A stretch of 64,000 nucleotides of DNA from positions 310,001 through 374,000 of the forward strand of contig NZ_JANQLX010000017.1 in the NCBI RefSeq assembly GCF_028280385.1. The letters run 5' to 3'. Position numbers and translations under genes: made by a program. How positions within the stretch are numbered: position 1 is the stretch's first letter; every line of letters begins with the position of its first letter. Under the pieces are notes generated by a model. That model had not been told where the DNA came from and made no database searches. It worked only from the letters and a program-made list of their open reading frames with translations. This document shows, piece by piece, positions 45,147 through 52,975 of this stretch. This stretch comes from Allomuricauda sp. (lineage in GTDB: Bacteria; Bacteroidota; Bacteroidia; Flavobacteriales; Flavobacteriaceae).

Positions 45147-45459
45147 TAAGTTTTCTATTCAATCTTCAGTTTCATAAGGGCCTTTATCCACATTTGAAAC
45201 AGATGTTCCCACGCATTCAATTGTGTTACCATTGATGTTTGCCCATGCTCAAAATACACAAAAACCAGAACATCTGCCATAGGTTTGGTCAATGCATTCA
45301 CAATTTTCCACGCTGTGAAGGACAATTATCCGCTTATTTCGGTCACCAAATTTCCAAACTATGGCAAAAGGTCCGTTTACGAACCCAAAGTGCGTGCTCA
45401 CTCAAAATGGATATTTCTTTAGGTAAAGAGCTTCTAGTTTAGTGGTCAAACCACCGATC

Positions 45460-48285
45460 ATGAAAACCAAAATCATCTTTCTGACCTTATTTTTATCCTC
45501 AGTCTTCCCTCTTTTTGCCCAGCAAGGAATTATATCCGGCACCCTTTTGGATAAAGAAGGTGTCCCCATCCCCGGGGTGAACATTACCATTAAAGGCAGC
45601 AACGAGGGGGCGCAGACCGATTTTGACGGCAACTACAGTATTAGCTGCTCAGTTGGGGACTTTTTGGTTTTTACCTATATCGGATTTTCCACCAAGGAGG
45701 TCAAGGTTACGGCAGATATGTTCCAGCATGGACTAAATACAAAAATCATCAGGAAGGAGCCGGTACAACAAGTCCTTTCAGAGGACTACATCAACTTTTT
45801 GAAACAGCAAAAAGGACCCCAATTTGATATTCCTGATATTGCAACTTCCTACAAAAAGTTTACTTCAAAATATCGGTATCGGTACTTCAACGCCTCCAAA
45901 ATCAAAGACATTGAGATTTCGAAGGATGCCATAAAAGTTAAAAACTATACGGACGACCTGTATTTTGAGATTGGTCTACAACAAAAAACCAGTCTTCAAT
46001 TTGTACAGCAATCAAACCTTCCCGAGATCCAGACCCAATTTGCCCAAGGAAGACCTGAAGACGGAAATTTGGCATGGTTTGGGGCGGAAACCAATGAAGC
46101 GTTTTCCTTCGGTCCCAGAATTTCAAATCTGGAGTTTGACGGGCAGGCATATCCTTTTGATTCAAACGGGGCTTTGGTGGCTCTTGGCTCAGGAAATGGA
46201 CAAGCTGCCAATGCATACCGTTCCCAATTGTTCAAAAACAGCTGGAACCATAGTACCGCCCTTAACCTAAACATCCACACCGAGCAGCAACAGCTCAACT
46301 TCAGTTATACCAACAGCGCATTCAAAGACCTGTTCAACAAATCAGGAAGCAAGACCAATTATTTTGATCTAGGTTACATAAATCAAGGAGATAGGCTACA
46401 GTGGGACGCTTCTGTACAATGGAGCAAGAGCAAAACCGAAAATGCCAATATAAACGGGCTGTACAATCAAATCCATTTGGCGCAATTGATTACACCGCCA
46501 ACATTTTCGAATAGCCAAGGCCCAATGCTGATTGACGGCAGCCAAAGGAGTTTTAGCCCTCAAAATTATAATAACCCCTATTGGCTATTGGAGCACAACC
46601 AAAACACCTTTGACCATTCTTTTTTGAAGGCCATTTTACAGAACAGCTTTGATATTGCAGGCAACCTGAAGATTGCCACAGGTCTCACTTACACCAAGCA
46701 AGAGGAAAATATTCAAGCCAATCTACCATTGGGGACAAATGGTTTCCCGAACGGTTTTAGGTCCAACAAACAGTTTGGAACCGAGGAATTCACAGCTGCA
46801 CTGGCAGCCAATTATTGGCATCTTTACCTTACTGACGATATCCATTTTTCACCACATTCCTCTTTTCGGTACCATTATTCAGATTTGAACTATCACCTTA
46901 CGGAAGCTTCATTATTTCAAGAGTTGAACAACATAACAAGTAGGCCGGTCAAATCAACGTTGGAATTGGAAAATAGAATGCTGTTTGAAGGCTATTTTGG
47001 TTTTGACCTAAGGCTAACATTGCAAAACAACTCCTTCTCTTCTTCTGTACAGGGCAGTAAGTGGTTCTTGCCTTCCGCCAAACTGTACCTTCAGCTTGGA
47101 AACCGAATATTTGACCACTCTGATTTTTTGCATTCCATTTCAATTAGCGGTGGATACTCCAAAAATGTGGTCGATTTTCCATTGTACTACAATAATTTCA
47201 GCCACAACAGTCTACAGTTGGAGGTGGAAAACCACCAAAGCTACACCACCAACAACGATTTGTTCATCTCCACTAATCTTGAATTTGAAGAAGCGGAGCA
47301 ATTTGATGTCGAGGCCAAAATCTCATTTTTCAACAATAAATTGAGCTTGGGGGCCAACTATTACAATGCGTTGAACAAAAACAGCATATTCCCAGTTTTC
47401 GAGGGCAATTGGGAGCTTAGAAATATGGCCACGATAAGAAACCAAGGACTGGAAGCCAGTATTGATTTTGATGTCTATCGGCATTCTAACTCCAACTTTG
47501 GTTTGGATACCCGGATTTCCTTTAGCAGGAATACACCCATGGTCCAATCAATTGCGGATATTGGTTTGGAGCGAATCCCCGTTGCCGGGTTTTCTTCCAT
47601 CTCCAAAAACCTGATAAAGGGACAGGCCCCTGGCACCATTGTGGGTTCAGCCTTCTTACGAAATCAAGAAGGTCAAGTGGTTATAGGACCCGATGGATTT
47701 CCGCTAGTAGATTCCCAACCCCAAATTTTGGGCAACCCCATACCGTATTTTAACCTGGGATGGTCCACAACACTCCATCTTCATCAGTTCACCATGAACT
47801 TTCTATGGGATTACCAAAAGGGAGGAGATATTTGGAACGGGACCCAAAACACCCTGAATTATTTTGGAACTTCCCAAGAATCGGTCCAATTGAGAGGTAT
47901 CTCCGATTTCATTTTTCAGGGCGTGGATGCACAGGGAAACATCAATGCCTTACCGGTTGCCTTTGCTCCTACCACATCCAACATCCAACAAAATAGATGG
48001 GTACGCTATGGTTTTGAAGGTGTGGCCGAAGAAGCCATTGCTGACGGTAGCTACTTGAACCTAAAGTCCATTTCCCTGAAGTACACCATCAAAAAAGACG
48101 ACAAGGATGCCCTGTTCAAGGAAGTTGTTTTTGGCCTTTTTGCCAAGAATGTCTGGACTTGGACCAAGACTAGGGGAGCCAATCCCTATAGCGCCCTTTT
48201 TGGCAACAGTACCGCCTCGGGCCTCCATTTTTTTAACCTGCCATTGGCCTCCGAGGCAGGTATCAACATCAATATAAAAATTTAA
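45460..48285 (+). CDS. SusC/RagA-like outer-membrane barrel with CarboxypepD_reg domain but apparently no TonB plug domain
   Basis: Signal peptide MKTKIIFLTLFLSSVFPLFAQ; GIISGTLLDKEGVPIPGVNITIKGSNEGAQTDFDGNYSI; then ~100 aa linker without EVVVTALG/VIDGI/GVVLI(T/N)TK motifs, then SusC-like barrel ending ASEAGININIKI. Confidence 0.8.
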   Translation: MKTKIIFLTLFLSSVFPLFAQQGIISGTLLDKEGVPIPGVNITIKGSNEGAQTDFDGNYSISCSVGDFLVFTYIGFSTKEVKVTADMFQHGLNTKIIRKEPVQQVLSEDYINFLKQQKGPQFDIPDIATSYKKFTSKYRYRYFNASKIKDIEISKDAIKVKNYTDDLYFEIGLQQKTSLQFVQQSNLPEIQTQFAQGRPEDGNLAWFGAETNEAFSFGPRISNLEFDGQAYPFDSNGALVALGSGNGQAANAYRSQLFKNSWNHSTALNLNIHTEQQQLNFSYTNSAFKDLFNKSGSKTNYFDLGYINQGDRLQWDASVQWSKSKTENANINGLYNQIHLAQLITPPTFSNSQGPMLIDGSQRSFSPQNYNNPYWLLEHNQNTFDHSFLKAILQNSFDIAGNLKIATGLTYTKQEENIQANLPLGTNGFPNGFRSNKQFGTEEFTAALAANYWHLYLTDDIHFSPHSSFRYHYSDLNYHLTEASLFQELNNITSRPVKSTLELENRMLFEGYFGFDLRLTLQNNSFSSSVQGSKWFLPSAKLYLQLGNRIFDHSDFLHSISISGGYSKNVVDFPLYYNNFSHNSLQLEVENHQSYTTNNDLFISTNLEFEEAEQFDVEAKISFFNNKLSLGANYYNALNKNSIFPVFEGNWELRNMATIRNQGLEASIDFDVYRHSNSNFGLDTRISFSRNTPMVQSIADIGLERIPVAGFSSISKNLIKGQAPGTIVGSAFLRNQEGQVVIGPDGFPLVDSQPQILGNPIPYFNLGWSTTLHLHQFTMNFLWDYQKGGDIWNGTQNTLNYFGTSQESVQLRGISDFIFQGVDAQGNINALPVAFAPTTSNIQQNRWVRYGFEGVAEEAIADGSYLNLKSISLKYTIKKDDKDALFKEVVFGLFAKNVWTWTKTRGANPYSALFGNSTASGLHFFNLPLASEAGININIKI

Positions 48286-48289
48286 GATC

Positions 48290-51200
48290 ATGACGCTCAA
48301 AAATAGACTTCTTAAGCATATTGCCCTGACATTTATCTTGTTTTGTGGCACCCTTGCCACTACGGCCCAGATGCAATCGAATCCCCTGGAAAAAATCTAT
48401 ACCCAAACAGATAGGCCCTTTTACTTTCCCGGGGAAACTCTTTGGTTCAAATCCTACGTGGTTGATGAAAACAACCGCCCCTCACATACCAGCGACCTTA
48501 TCATCGCCGAGCTTATTTCCCCAAAAGGAACCGTGGTAAAGCAAAAAAAGCTGGCCACCTCCTTTGGATATGCCCATGGCGATTTCACCATACAAAAAGA
48601 TTGGGTAGGGGGCATATACCGGTTAAAGGTGTATACCCATTATATGCGAAACTTTGGAAAAACCTCCTTTTTCACCAAGGAGATCACGGTACAAAAAGTG
48701 GTGGTTCCCAAATTGCTCCTATCCCTTGACTATCAAAAAGAAACTTATGGCAAAGGAAGTGTGGTACACGCCGATTTTAAAGTTGAAAACTTGAAAAACC
48801 AACCCTTGGCCAATACATCTTTTGTGGCAAAAGTTAGGCTTAGGGGGTATCTGATCATGGAAAAGGAGCTTCGCACCGATGAAGCTGGAGAAAGTGTCGT
48901 CACGTTTCAATTGCCAAAGGATCTCAATACCTCAGATGTGGTTCTTAACATAGAGGTGCCCTACCAAGGCTCACAAGAATCCATTTCCAGGACAGTACCG
49001 GTGCTGATGGACAACATAGACCTTCAATTCCTGCCAGAAGGAGGGAAAATCATAAAAGGGGCAACCAATACCATTGCTTTTAAAGCTTTGAACGAATTTG
49101 GAAAACCTGCGGACGTAAGCGGAATCATTTGGGACGCGGAAGGAAATAAAATACAAGAGTTTGAAAGTACCCATGACGGGATGGGTGCCTTTGATCTAAA
49201 ACCGGGAAGTGGGATGGCTTACAAGGCCCAAATAACCCATCCATTTATGTCTGATTCACTATACCAGCTGCCGCATGTCCATACTTCTGGTGCAAAAATC
49301 TCCCTATTGGAACACACTTCTAAAAACACAGGTTGGGAATTCCACACCGCAGCACCCTTCCAAGGAACGTTCCAGGCCTTGGATGCCCTGGGCAGGGTTT
49401 GCTTTGAAAAAAATATATCGTTCAGGCCAGGTAGCCATAAAATCAAAGTGCCCATTTCCCAATTTCCAAGGGGCATTACCAAGTTCAGGGTATTGACGGA
49501 ACAGAAACATGTGGTCAGTGAACGATTGGTATTTCTGAATAACCACAAGGCCTTAAAAATTGAAATCAAACCGGATAAAGAGGTCTACGGCCCTAGAGAG
49601 AAGGTAGTCCTGGAAATTCTTACCAAGGATTTTGACCAGAATCCAATCAGCAGCAATCTTGCTATATCCGTATCGGACAATGCACTGTTATCTTTTGCGG
49701 ATGACAAACAAGATCGTATTGACAGCCATTTTTTGCTGTCCAGTGAATTGAAGGGAAAGATTCATGAGCCTTCCTTTTATTTTGATCCAGAAGAGAAAAA
49801 TACGGAAGAGGCCAGGGACCTGGTCATGTTGACCCATGGTTGGAGGGACTATTTACAGCAGCCCAAAAAGAAACTGGACTTTTTCCCTGAAAAACGAAAT
49901 TTATTGGAAGGTCAGGTCTTAGACAAAAAAGGAAATCCCATTGAGGCCCATTTGATATTATTTGACCGCTTTGGTGATAAGGCCCTGCAATTTAAAACCG
50001 ATGCACATGGCAATTACCGCTGCAAATTGGGCAAGGCGCGTTCTTATGTGCTTGTGGCCTATAGGGAAGACAAGCAATTTTTAAAGATTGTGGAACGGCA
50101 AACTCCCACTACCCTAACAGCTCCTATTCCCGCGAACAATGGAGTCCTAAAGAAAGCCAATGAAAAGACTACTGGTTTTGCCGCAGTTGATGGTACCAAA
50201 AAACCACTTCAAGAACCCATTAAGGAAGCAGCTGCATTTTCCATAAATATGGAAGAGGATGCCCAATCTTTGGATGAGGTAGTAGTGACCGCCCTGGGCA
50301 CCACAATTTCCAAACAAAGCCTTGGTTATGCGGTAGCAGAAGCAGATGCTGAAGAACTTGGCGGAAGTTCCGATACCATCAGTCAACTGCTTCAAGGTCG
50401 TGTTGCAGGGGTGCAAATCACCAACTCAAGCGGTGTGAACGGAGCTGGAACAACAGTCAACATTCGGGGATTGGGTTCGGTGCGCGGTTCCAGCAGACCT
50501 CTTTATGTAATTGACGGCATTCCGTATTCAGATGGATTTTCCGATGATCAAAATACCGAGCTACAAAATCTAAACCCATCCGACATCCAAAATATCAGCG
50601 TACTTAAAGGCGTAGCGGCCAGTAGTCTCTATGGATCTGCAGGATTGAACGGGGTGGTCTTGATAAACACCAAAAAAGGCAGGTACAGATACAACGATAA
50701 AATACTGTCAAAAAAGAAATTCAACAATTATGCGGTAAAATATATTTTCAAATACAACCGTCCAAATTCGGTCAGCTCAACCAAGGAATTTTATATGCCG
50801 GTTTACGATGCTGGTGAAATGGTAACGGAACGAAACGATTTTAGAAAAACCATCTACTGGAACCCCGTGGTGCAAACAGATAAAAATGGAAAGGCCCAAC
50901 TGGAATTCTATAATTCGGATGCCATTACCTCATTCAATATTACCGCCGAAGGAATGTCGTACAACGGTTTGGTCAACCATCAGGAAGTAACGTACAGCAT
51001 CCAAAGACCGTTAAGCATTTCCACTAAACTGCCCCGTTATAGTGTCTTGAACGATACCATTAAAATTCCTGTTACCATAACCAACAACACTTCCCAAATC
51101 CAAAAGTTGCAGTTTGATGTAACCCTGCCCAAGGAATTCCAATTGCTGGACAAGAAGGAATTGGGAGATAGCATACAGGTGGATGCCAATGGGTTCTTGT

Positions 51201-52915
51201 TGAAACACATTGCAGTGGTTCCAAAGAAAACAGGAAAAAACCTGGCTTTTACCGCCAACGTGCACAATGGTTTGCACAGCGACGGATTCAGCGAGGACAT
51301 AACGGTGTTAAGTCCATATTTCCCTACGGAGACCACCATCTCCGGGTCCGAAAATGGAACATATAGCTTTGTTATGGATCATGTAGTTGCAGGGAGTGTT
51401 CAAGCTGATTTCAAGGTGTATGTGGATGTTATTGGCGATGTTATGAACGGGATTGAAGGTATCATCCGGAAACCTTATGGGTGTTTTGAGCAGACCTCCG
51501 CTTCCACATATCCCAATGTAATGGTACTTAAATATCTTCAGGAAACAGGAAAAAGCAACCAGGAAATTGAAGCCAAGGCAATGAACTACATTAAGCAGGG
51601 ATATAAAAGACTGATTGGCTTTGAGACTTCTGAAGGTGGCTTTGAATGGTTTGGAAAAACTCCTCCACATGAAACCCTTACCGCCTTTGGAATTTTGGAA
51701 TTTACCGAAATGAAGGAAGTATATCCAAAGGTAGATCAAAAGATGATCCACAGAACTGTTCAATGGCTTTTGGGACAAAAGGATGGCAAAGGTGGATTCC
51801 ATAAAAGCAAAAAGGGGTATGACAGTTTTGCAAGTTCACCACCTAAGGTGGCCAACGCCTACATTGTTTATGCCCTCAGCGAGGCAGGGCTATCCACAGA
51901 AATTGAAGCGGAATTCCAAAGTGCTCTGCAAGAAGCGCTGCGCTCCAAAGATGTGTACCGCATGGCCCTAATGGCACTGGCCAGCGATAATCTTGGCAAT
52001 ACATCGGCTTATGCGGAATTAATGAAAGAACTACTTCAAAAAATTGAAAAACTAGGTTATGAAAACCAAAAGGTGGAAAACACCATTACCCGTTCCTATG
52101 GAAATTCCAAGGCCTTGGAAACAACTGCACTGATAGTGTTGGCCCTTTTGCGCGATGATGCCCATAGTGACAAAGTTGCGAAAGGCGTACAGTTTATTAC
52201 ATCGCATAGGGAGCACGGCCGTTTTGGCAGTACCCAAGCCACCGTGATGTCCCTAAAGGCGCTTTTGGAGTATAGCAAAAGTCAAAAAAGAGCGCTTCTT
52301 GGCAAAGATGATTCCATTGCAATAATGGTCAACGGTAAGACTTTTATGAAGAATCTGCAACAATTGGACAACGGAACGCTACTGATTCCAAATATTGGGG
52401 AATACTTGGTTGAAGGGGTCCAAAAAGTTGAGGTCAAATTCAAGAATGACAAGAAAACCTCTCCCTATGCCCTAGATGTTAAATGGGACAGTTATTTGCC
52501 AAATTCCTCCACTCTTTCACCTGTTGTTTTGAAGACAGAGCTCAGTGGGCCTGATACTTCTGTGGGAAGTTTGGTAAGAATGGGCATCCATGTTTCAAAC
52601 AAGTTGAATGAACCGGTTTCCATGACCACGGCTATCATAGGTATTCCAAGCGGTGCCGGACTACAGCCCTATCAACTAAAAGAACTTTTGGAAACCAATC
52701 TTGTGGACTATTATGAAGTTTTTGACAACTATTTGGTACTCTACTGGAAAAGTATGACGGCATTGGAGGAAAAGGTAATCCATCTGGATCTAAAGGCTGA
52801 AATCCCTGGTCGTTTCCAAGCTCCGGCCAGTGCGGCGTATTTGTACTATGGCGATGAAAACAAATATTGGGTACCTGGAACATCGGTACATATAAGGGCA
52901 ACGGTCGGTAATTAA
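48290..52915 (+). CDS. Alpha-2-macroglobulin-like protein (MG domains, thioester domain) with embedded CarboxypepD_reg and TonB-dependent receptor plug domain
   Basis: MG2-like YTQTDRPFYFPGETLWFKSYVVDE; plug LDEVVVTALGTTISKQSLGYA...NIRGLGSVRGSSRPLYVIDGIPY...VLKGVAASSLYGSAGLNGVVLINTKKG; thioester YGCFEQTSAS followed by the TED-like helical domain. Confidence 0.9.
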   Translation: MTLKNRLLKHIALTFILFCGTLATTAQMQSNPLEKIYTQTDRPFYFPGETLWFKSYVVDENNRPSHTSDLIIAELISPKGTVVKQKKLATSFGYAHGDFTIQKDWVGGIYRLKVYTHYMRNFGKTSFFTKEITVQKVVVPKLLLSLDYQKETYGKGSVVHADFKVENLKNQPLANTSFVAKVRLRGYLIMEKELRTDEAGESVVTFQLPKDLNTSDVVLNIEVPYQGSQESISRTVPVLMDNIDLQFLPEGGKIIKGATNTIAFKALNEFGKPADVSGIIWDAEGNKIQEFESTHDGMGAFDLKPGSGMAYKAQITHPFMSDSLYQLPHVHTSGAKISLLEHTSKNTGWEFHTAAPFQGTFQALDALGRVCFEKNISFRPGSHKIKVPISQFPRGITKFRVLTEQKHVVSERLVFLNNHKALKIEIKPDKEVYGPREKVVLEILTKDFDQNPISSNLAISVSDNALLSFADDKQDRIDSHFLLSSELKGKIHEPSFYFDPEEKNTEEARDLVMLTHGWRDYLQQPKKKLDFFPEKRNLLEGQVLDKKGNPIEAHLILFDRFGDKALQFKTDAHGNYRCKLGKARSYVLVAYREDKQFLKIVERQTPTTLTAPIPANNGVLKKANEKTTGFAAVDGTKKPLQEPIKEAAAFSINMEEDAQSLDEVVVTALGTTISKQSLGYAVAEADAEELGGSSDTISQLLQGRVAGVQITNSSGVNGAGTTVNIRGLGSVRGSSRPLYVIDGIPYSDGFSDDQNTELQNLNPSDIQNISVLKGVAASSLYGSAGLNGVVLINTKKGRYRYNDKILSKKKFNNYAVKYIFKYNRPNSVSSTKEFYMPVYDAGEMVTERNDFRKTIYWNPVVQTDKNGKAQLEFYNSDAITSFNITAEGMSYNGLVNHQEVTYSIQRPLSISTKLPRYSVLNDTIKIPVTITNNTSQIQKLQFDVTLPKEFQLLDKKELGDSIQVDANGFLLKHIAVVPKKTGKNLAFTANVHNGLHSDGFSEDITVLSPYFPTETTISGSENGTYSFVMDHVVAGSVQADFKVYVDVIGDVMNGIEGIIRKPYGCFEQTSASTYPNVMVLKYLQETGKSNQEIEAKAMNYIKQGYKRLIGFETSEGGFEWFGKTPPHETLTAFGILEFTEMKEVYPKVDQKMIHRTVQWLLGQKDGKGGFHKSKKGYDSFASSPPKVANAYIVYALSEAGLSTEIEAEFQSALQEALRSKDVYRMALMALASDNLGNTSAYAELMKELLQKIEKLGYENQKVENTITRSYGNSKALETTALIVLALLRDDAHSDKVAKGVQFITSHREHGRFGSTQATVMSLKALLEYSKSQKRALLGKDDSIAIMVNGKTFMKNLQQLDNGTLLIPNIGEYLVEGVQKVEVKFKNDKKTSPYALDVKWDSYLPNSSTLSPVVLKTELSGPDTSVGSLVRMGIHVSNKLNEPVSMTTAIIGIPSGAGLQPYQLKELLETNLVDYYEVFDNYLVLYWKSMTALEEKVIHLDLKAEIPGRFQAPASAAYLYYGDENKYWVPGTSVHIRATVGN
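50266..50695 (+). other. TonB box/plug domain embedded within the A2M-like protein
   Basis: Translated region SLDEVVVTALG...GVVLINTKKGRYRY aligns by eye with the plug of the SusC at 12364-15720. Confidence 0.88.
51482..51493 (+). other. Thioester motif CFEQ (CxEQ) of the A2M-like protein
   Basis: TGT TTT GAG CAG in frame with the 48290 start, in context KPYGCFEQTSAS. Confidence 0.88.
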
Positions 52916-52946: not shown

Positions 52947-52975
52947 AAGCGCCCAACAATTTGGGCGCTTTTTTT
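52947..52975 (+). terminator. Rho-independent terminator of the barrel/A2M operon
   Basis: Perfect 10-bp stem aagcgcccaa-caat-ttgggcgctt followed by ttttt, 32 bp after the A2M stop. Confidence 0.9.

Follow-up and report, generated by a model that had tools for sequence, protein, structure and literature searches.

A conserved two-gene unit of flavobacteria that encodes a plugless SusC-type barrel and an alpha-2-macroglobulin with an internal TonB plug

The window analysed here, a stretch of 64,000 nucleotides of Allomuricauda sp. DNA, contains a two-gene unit that is carried by many marine flavobacteria. Its first gene encodes a SusC-type outer-membrane barrel that has no plug, and its second encodes a thioester-containing alpha-2-macroglobulin (A2M) with a TonB-dependent receptor plug in its interior (Table 1). 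Judged by sequence, the two genes jointly appear to make one SusC: in a search of the organism's own genome with the SusC profile TIGR04056 the barrel protein covers profile positions 3–63 and 277–980 and the A2M covers 60–231, and the 22 other SusC proteins of that genome are all whole. The extension, Ton box, plug and barrel of a single TonB-dependent transporter (TBDT) are all encoded, distributed across two chains. We favour, with a probability of about 0.68, the reading that the two proteins form one split TBDT, in which the A2M would plug the barrel in trans and hold its thioester trap below it in the periplasm.

Table 1. Coordinates of the barrel/A2M unit in the window (residue numbers are those of the protein named)
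Feature	Position	Strand	Size or residues	Basis or remark
Plugless SusC/RagA-type 22-strand outer-membrane barrel gene	45460..48285	+	941 aa	ORF, Pfam, TIGR04056, structure model, Foldseek
Barrel signal peptide	45460..45519	+	1–20	By sequence; helix 2–19 in structure model
CarboxypepD_reg-like N-terminal extension of barrel	45532..45717	+	25–86	PF13715 E 5.3e-14; 36/36 relatives
Linker at the plug's place in barrel protein	45718..45960	+	87–167	No plug by any profile; 90–143 mostly pLDDT <50
SusC-type 22-strand barrel	45961..48282	+	168–941	TIGR04056 positions 276–980; model; Foldseek to SusC 5fq7
Gap between barrel and A2M genes	48286..48289	+	4 bp	-1 to 6 bp in nearly all relatives
A2M gene with internal TonB plug	48290..52915	+	1541 aa	
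A2M MG2 domain	48392..48646	+	35–119	PF01835 E 4.7e-15
CarboxypepD_reg-like domain before A2M plug	49904..50062	+	539–591	Weak, under Pfam cut-off
A2M Ton box-like LDEVVV	50270..50287	+	about 661–666	Glu kept in 49/49 A2M plugs
A2M TonB-dependent receptor plug	50315..50656	+	676–789	PF07715 E 4e-18; at A2M bait-region position
A2M domain PF00207	50849..51112	+	854–941	
A2M thioester-containing (TED) domain	51413..52273	+	1042–1328	PF07678 E 6e-37
A2M thioester motif GCFEQ	51479..51493	+	1064–1068	Cys1065, Gln1068; 47/47 relatives
A2M C-terminal macroglobulin (receptor-binding) domain, A2M_recep	52622..52855	+	1445–1522	Weak match
Intrinsic-terminator-like hairpin closing the pair	52947..52970	+		10-bp stem and T run

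The barrel protein is 941 amino acids (AAs) long when counted from its ATG codon, or 947 if a GTG upstream at 45442 is the start. A sequence-only reading of the window had given it a signal peptide, a CarboxypepD_reg domain and a SusC-type barrel, the last two of which are borne out by Pfam and TIGR04056; residues 252–940 align to positions 276–980 of the latter profile, with a score of 157.4 bits that is far under the family cut-off of 368.25. Its structure model (mean pLDDT 76.8) has the 22 strands of a SusC-type barrel, and the best Foldseek matches of the model are SusC proteins (E 5.4e-38). Pfam finds no Plug domain (PF07715) in the 941 AAs, even at E ≤ 1, and the barrel chain holds neither plug nor Ton box: PF07715 is absent from 36 of 36 barrels and a dedicated plug model (below) matches 0 of 47. 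The plugless linker of the sequence-only reading survives in its lack of a plug and not in its length, which is about 80 AAs (residues 87–167) and not about 100. The model shows this linker as disordered, mostly below pLDDT 50 over residues 90–143, and the lumen of the barrel is free of any domain. We note that three Dokdonia barrels (L104, L107 and L111) are just 802–806 AAs long, having lost some 140 residues in two blocks, one after strand 1 and the other before the last strands.

The A2M-like gene 4 bp downstream, with its Ton box-like LDEVVV and full plug, is also as first described (PF07715 E 4e-18), with the refinement that plug and Ton box are internal and lie at the bait region, not at an end of the protein. 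The plug sits between macroglobulin (MG) domains and directly before PF00207, which is the bait-region position of other A2Ms, and A2M residues 643–901 align to SusC profile positions 60–319. The rest of the protein has the features of a thioester A2M of Type I, namely MG2, PF00207 and TED domains and a CXEQ motif (GCFEQ in 47 of 47 relatives). In a structure model of residues 420–1541 (mean pLDDT 70.4) the MG, TED and C-terminal domains are confident, and the closest folds are macroglobulins and complement proteins. Residues 605–693, a disordered stretch that runs before and across the Ton box, fall below pLDDT 50, as parts of the plug are also low; the low confidence of the plug may reflect only the missing barrel, and we set it aside as evidence. 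The signal peptide of the window A2M is of the ordinary type. It has no lipobox (a lipobox-like motif occurs in only 3 of the 47 A2Ms), and an NCBIfam scan of the window protein found no type IX secretion system (T9SS) C-terminal sorting domain.

The terminator that had been noted at the end of the pair is found as a hairpin at 52947–52970. In this genome a polysaccharide locus (38843–60281) with GH2-like, GH16, GH20, DUF6786 and Y_Y_Y regulator genes surrounds the pair, which lies on its opposite strand; a functional tie to these genes was considered and rejected, as the neighbours vary between genera. The genes that adjoin the pair in the window encode the Y_Y_Y regulator and the DUF6786 protein, so that no SusD gene stands beside it, and PBP1c is not among the neighbouring genes.

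A scan of 85,462 species genomes, in which the query was the C-terminal half of the A2M and two conserved heptapeptides served as seeds, found at least 37 loci, a lower bound. They are spread over more than 15 genera that belong almost entirely to the Flavobacteriaceae. The genera include Allomuricauda, Winogradskyella, Aquimarina, Kordia, Dokdonia, Leeuwenhoekiella, Tenacibaculum, Hyunsoonleella, Robertkochia, Neptunitalea, Subsaxibacter and Flavivirga, among others. The plugless barrel is the next gene upstream of the A2M in 35 of the 35 scanned loci that have upstream DNA, at a distance of about -1 to 6 bp (usually 2–6); two larger overlaps are matters of start-codon choice. Altogether 47 barrel/A2M pairs were collected, nearly all from Flavobacteriaceae and over 15 genera, and recurrence on this scale means that the arrangement is not due to chance. 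The neighbourhood survey that the sequence-only reading had proposed as a check thus finds the pair strongly conserved (47 pairs, 35/35 adjacency), and the profile search for a normal plug within the barrel, which it had proposed as well, finds none (0/47). At one locus, from a metagenome-assembled genome (L112, 7452–12073), the A2M is split into two overlapping frames of 882 and 701 AAs by a frameshift or a sequencing error.

The two genes were found only together. Among 400 genomes drawn evenly from the family, the A2M is present in 15 and the plugless barrel in 16; these are the same genomes, with the genes adjacent, and in the sixteenth the contig ends inside the A2M, after its plug. Among 396 genomes of the phylum, the four that have a plugless barrel are the same four that have a plug-bearing A2M, and one of them belongs to another family of the order. 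Three more A2Ms in the sample have no plug, and none of these has a barrel neighbour. The next-best barrels in the family search are all full-length SusC proteins of 1060–1172 AAs, and the inspected ones are followed in most cases by a SusD-like gene.

The domains of the two proteins are complementary throughout the family. A model of the plug, derived from 18 intact SusC proteins, matches 47 of 47 A2Ms (69–142 bits) and 0 of 47 barrels (best E 0.24), and a barrel model matches 47 of 47 barrels and 0 of 47 A2Ms. The plugless barrels form one clade with a support of 100, showing at the level of sequence that they have a single origin, and they have in common with their nearest intact SusC relatives a signature that follows strand 1, LPxLQxxxAQGRPxxG...GPET...SxGPxxxxLEFDG. 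Those intact SusC relatives (L146–L150 and L152) are often encoded beside rpsL-rpsG-fusA, and a SusD-like gene follows them. The history of the plug is less tidy: a plug tree of 146 columns, made to trace the SusC from which the plug came, is largely unresolved and disagrees with the barrel tree, a test does not reject that the A2M plugs form one clade (p 0.076), and the plug phylogeny is discordant with the remainder of the A2M as well. One reading of this discordance is that plug segments may have been exchanged with the many SusC genes of each genome.

In TBDTs plug and barrel are held together by residues known from FhuA, two basic ones of the plug set against two glutamates of the barrel. 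Residues of this kind are largely retained on both sides of the pair: in the A2M plugs the IRG arginine is present in 49 of 49 and the lysine in 48 of 49, and in the barrels Glu610 is kept in 45 of 47 and Glu/Asp666 in 46 of 47, while a third position, 616, is not conserved. The glutamate of the Ton box is kept in all 49 A2M plugs. From such sequence features, and from the complementarity of the two chains, we infer that the A2M plug docks in the barrel in trans. Covariation gives this no help: over 46 pairs (effective number 41), an underpowered comparison that had no positive control, there is no excess coupling between plug and barrel, and the plug has fewer of the top inter-protein couplings than expected. 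The plug and barrel tree distances of the same number of pairs are weakly correlated (0.51; partial 0.09), and the plug follows the rest of the A2M equally poorly (0.50). The idea of the sequence-only reading, a split SusC whose plug is supplied by an A2M, is therefore upheld by the plugless barrel (0/47) and by the conservation of the pair, and draws no support from covariation in the 46 pairs. The weak distance correlation, the shortage of plug couplings and the discordant plug tree all count against the split-transporter reading, as do two draft genomes (G006 and G014) in which a contig start truncates the A2M and a plugless barrel was found nowhere else. The divergence of the barrel is followed by the N-terminal MG third of the A2M (residues 31–370, window 48380–49400), with a partial r of about 0.39–0.47, and only the segment right after the plug rivals it in this; we take this as a hint that the N-terminal third may contact the barrel.

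In TBDTs of known structure the plug has its two ends on the periplasmic side. Since the plug lies in the middle of the A2M, the body of the A2M would then be in the periplasm, under the barrel. As we picture the split transporter, the first gene would supply the 22-strand barrel with its N-terminal extension and no plug, and the second the thioester A2M with a Ton box and plug between MG domains at the place of the bait region. After Sec export of the proteins the plug would enter the barrel from the periplasmic side and close it in trans, with the A2M body beneath the channel. When TonB pulls on the Ton box, the channel would open and the A2M would be strained or moved. Such an assembly would most likely serve for covalent capture, by the thioester, of proteins or proteases at the channel mouth during import of peptide or protein material. 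The nature of the imported substrate is a guess that starts from the trap, and the role may be protease defence or capture of the imported protein. Channel and trap would, as the two-gene unit suggests, act as a single machine.

How the trap would be set off can be pictured in two ways. The thioester of the E. coli A2M becomes exposed and active once the bait region is untethered (PMC4498604). With a plug in the bait position there are two models of this step: a protease may cleave an ordinary bait within the disordered residues ahead of the Ton box, or TonB force may arm the A2M. In the second, which is a special form of the split-transporter reading and compatible with it, the plug would stand in for the bait, and the thioester would be exposed by TonB force and not by proteolysis; by pulling the plug from the barrel TonB would open the channel and arm the A2M together, and passing proteins would be captured as they enter the periplasm. 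This fits the position of the plug directly before PF00207, at the place where bait untethering activates the E. coli protein (PMC4498604), the invariance of the Ton box glutamate (49/49) and of the thioester (47/47), and the disordered stretch 605–693 that precedes and includes the Ton box. That stretch is, however, equally explicable as an ordinary protease bait, and we regard force triggering as unlikely, if the best placed of the alternatives.

Next in order, and improbable, is the view that the A2M plug is a TonB-binding or structural module that acts outside this barrel, the barrel being a co-expressed porin that is open or closes itself. Plug-like domains do exist without a barrel partner, in orphans with degenerate plugs and in a VWA protein, which argues also against the split transporter in that a plug need not dock. 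Orphan macroglobulin proteins (L077, 8800–11271, and L078–L089; about 800–950 AAs), which are common and encoded by single genes, resemble the paired A2Ms in their MG2 architecture and in having a plug-like domain ahead of the final MG domain; they differ in that they end before the TED, have no barrel neighbour, and carry a degenerate plug (at most 28 bits; 5 of 11 pass E 1e-3). The missing plug–barrel covariation signal and the discordance between plug and barrel phylogenies also speak for such a module. On the other side, A2Ms carry the plug precisely when they are paired with a barrel that lacks one, and the three A2Ms that have no barrel do not carry it; its signature residues are nearly invariant in the A2Ms, whereas the orphan plugs reach only those 28 bits, and the barrel model has an 80-AA linker with no folded domain in the lumen. 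A second kind of free-plug protein is seen at locus L143 (1360–4206), where an ECF sigma factor gene is followed, directly upstream of a barrel/A2M pair, by a gene for a 771-AA protein with a Ton box, a plug, a VWA domain and a T9SS-like tail. Just upstream of another pair (L134, 1677–3093) are genes for an ECF sigma factor, an anti-sigma-like protein and a 156-AA secreted protein with two mini plug motifs.

Export or display of the A2M, one of the roles put forward in the sequence-only reading, is not favoured and ranks below both of these. The barrel would here be a dedicated outer-membrane exit or anchor, and the A2M would end up at the surface of the cell while its plug stays behind in the barrel. 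The tight gene pairing and the lack of a SusD gene adjoining the pair in the window would suit such a role, and there is a precedent in the TBDT Oar, which is needed for secretion of the protease PopC (PMC6434023). Against it, the window protein has no T9SS tail or domain and a lipobox-like motif is found in only 3 of 47 A2Ms. It is made less likely by the periplasmic position of the two plug ends, which would require 640–740 residues to thread outwards on one side. Finally, an artefact, a frameshifted or mis-assembled SusC beside a chimeric A2M, has nothing in its favour beyond the odd architecture and, at a negligible probability, was rejected: there are 47 open-frame pairs over very different sequences, and the two genes lie in different frames, each with a start codon and a signal peptide. 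The survey led to rejection of a pseudogene as well.

Should the plug dock in trans, the pair would be a natural TBDT whose gate belongs to another protein, would tie a macroglobulin to an outer-membrane channel, and would offer a ready-made means of fitting a gated pore with a covalent trap. It would also make two questions testable. One is whether the plug of a TBDT can leave the barrel as a unit, for which a separate plug protein could be tagged, exchanged or left out; the other is the target of the defence that bacterial macroglobulins provide.

Among published open-licence papers we found none that links a macroglobulin to a TonB plug or to a plugless SusC. The nearest known systems are the SusCD/RagAB TBDTs (TIGR04056; PDB 5fq7 and 6sli), which share with the pair the 22-strand barrel, the CarboxypepD_reg extension and the sequence of the SusC-type Ton box and plug, and the closest intact relatives of the plugless barrel are Flavobacteriaceae SusC proteins followed by SusD-like genes. 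In those systems, however, the plug is part of the barrel chain and an adjacent gene encodes the SusD lid, whereas here the plug is in a separate A2M, which is the second gene in all pairs. A Bacteroidota outer-membrane barrel that is closed on the periplasmic side by a separate protein is known in the T9SS translocon SprA with its Plug protein (PMC10202324); SprA differs in being a 36-strand secretion translocon that is not presented as TonB-dependent in PMC10202324 and has no macroglobulin.

On the macroglobulin side, bacterial A2Ms are classed by their thioester and partner genes into Type I, with PBP1c, and Type II, in the six-gene mag operon (PMC5764988). Type I proteins (ECAM/YfhM and the Salmonella A2M) are like the A2M described here in their MG domains, in the thioester with its CXEQ motif, in the TED and in the MG domain at the C-terminus, and those known are anchored in the inner membrane and encoded with PBP1c (PMC4498604, PMC5764988); the A2M of the window differs in having a plug at the bait position and an outer-membrane barrel as its partner gene, and has no lipobox or PBP1c there. 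The Type II protein MagD of Pseudomonas aeruginosa, a macroglobulin that acts in complex with products of its own operon (PMC5764988), is comparable in this to the proposed assembly and differs in having no thioester and no plug or barrel partner. The barrel/A2M arrangement fits neither Type I nor Type II.
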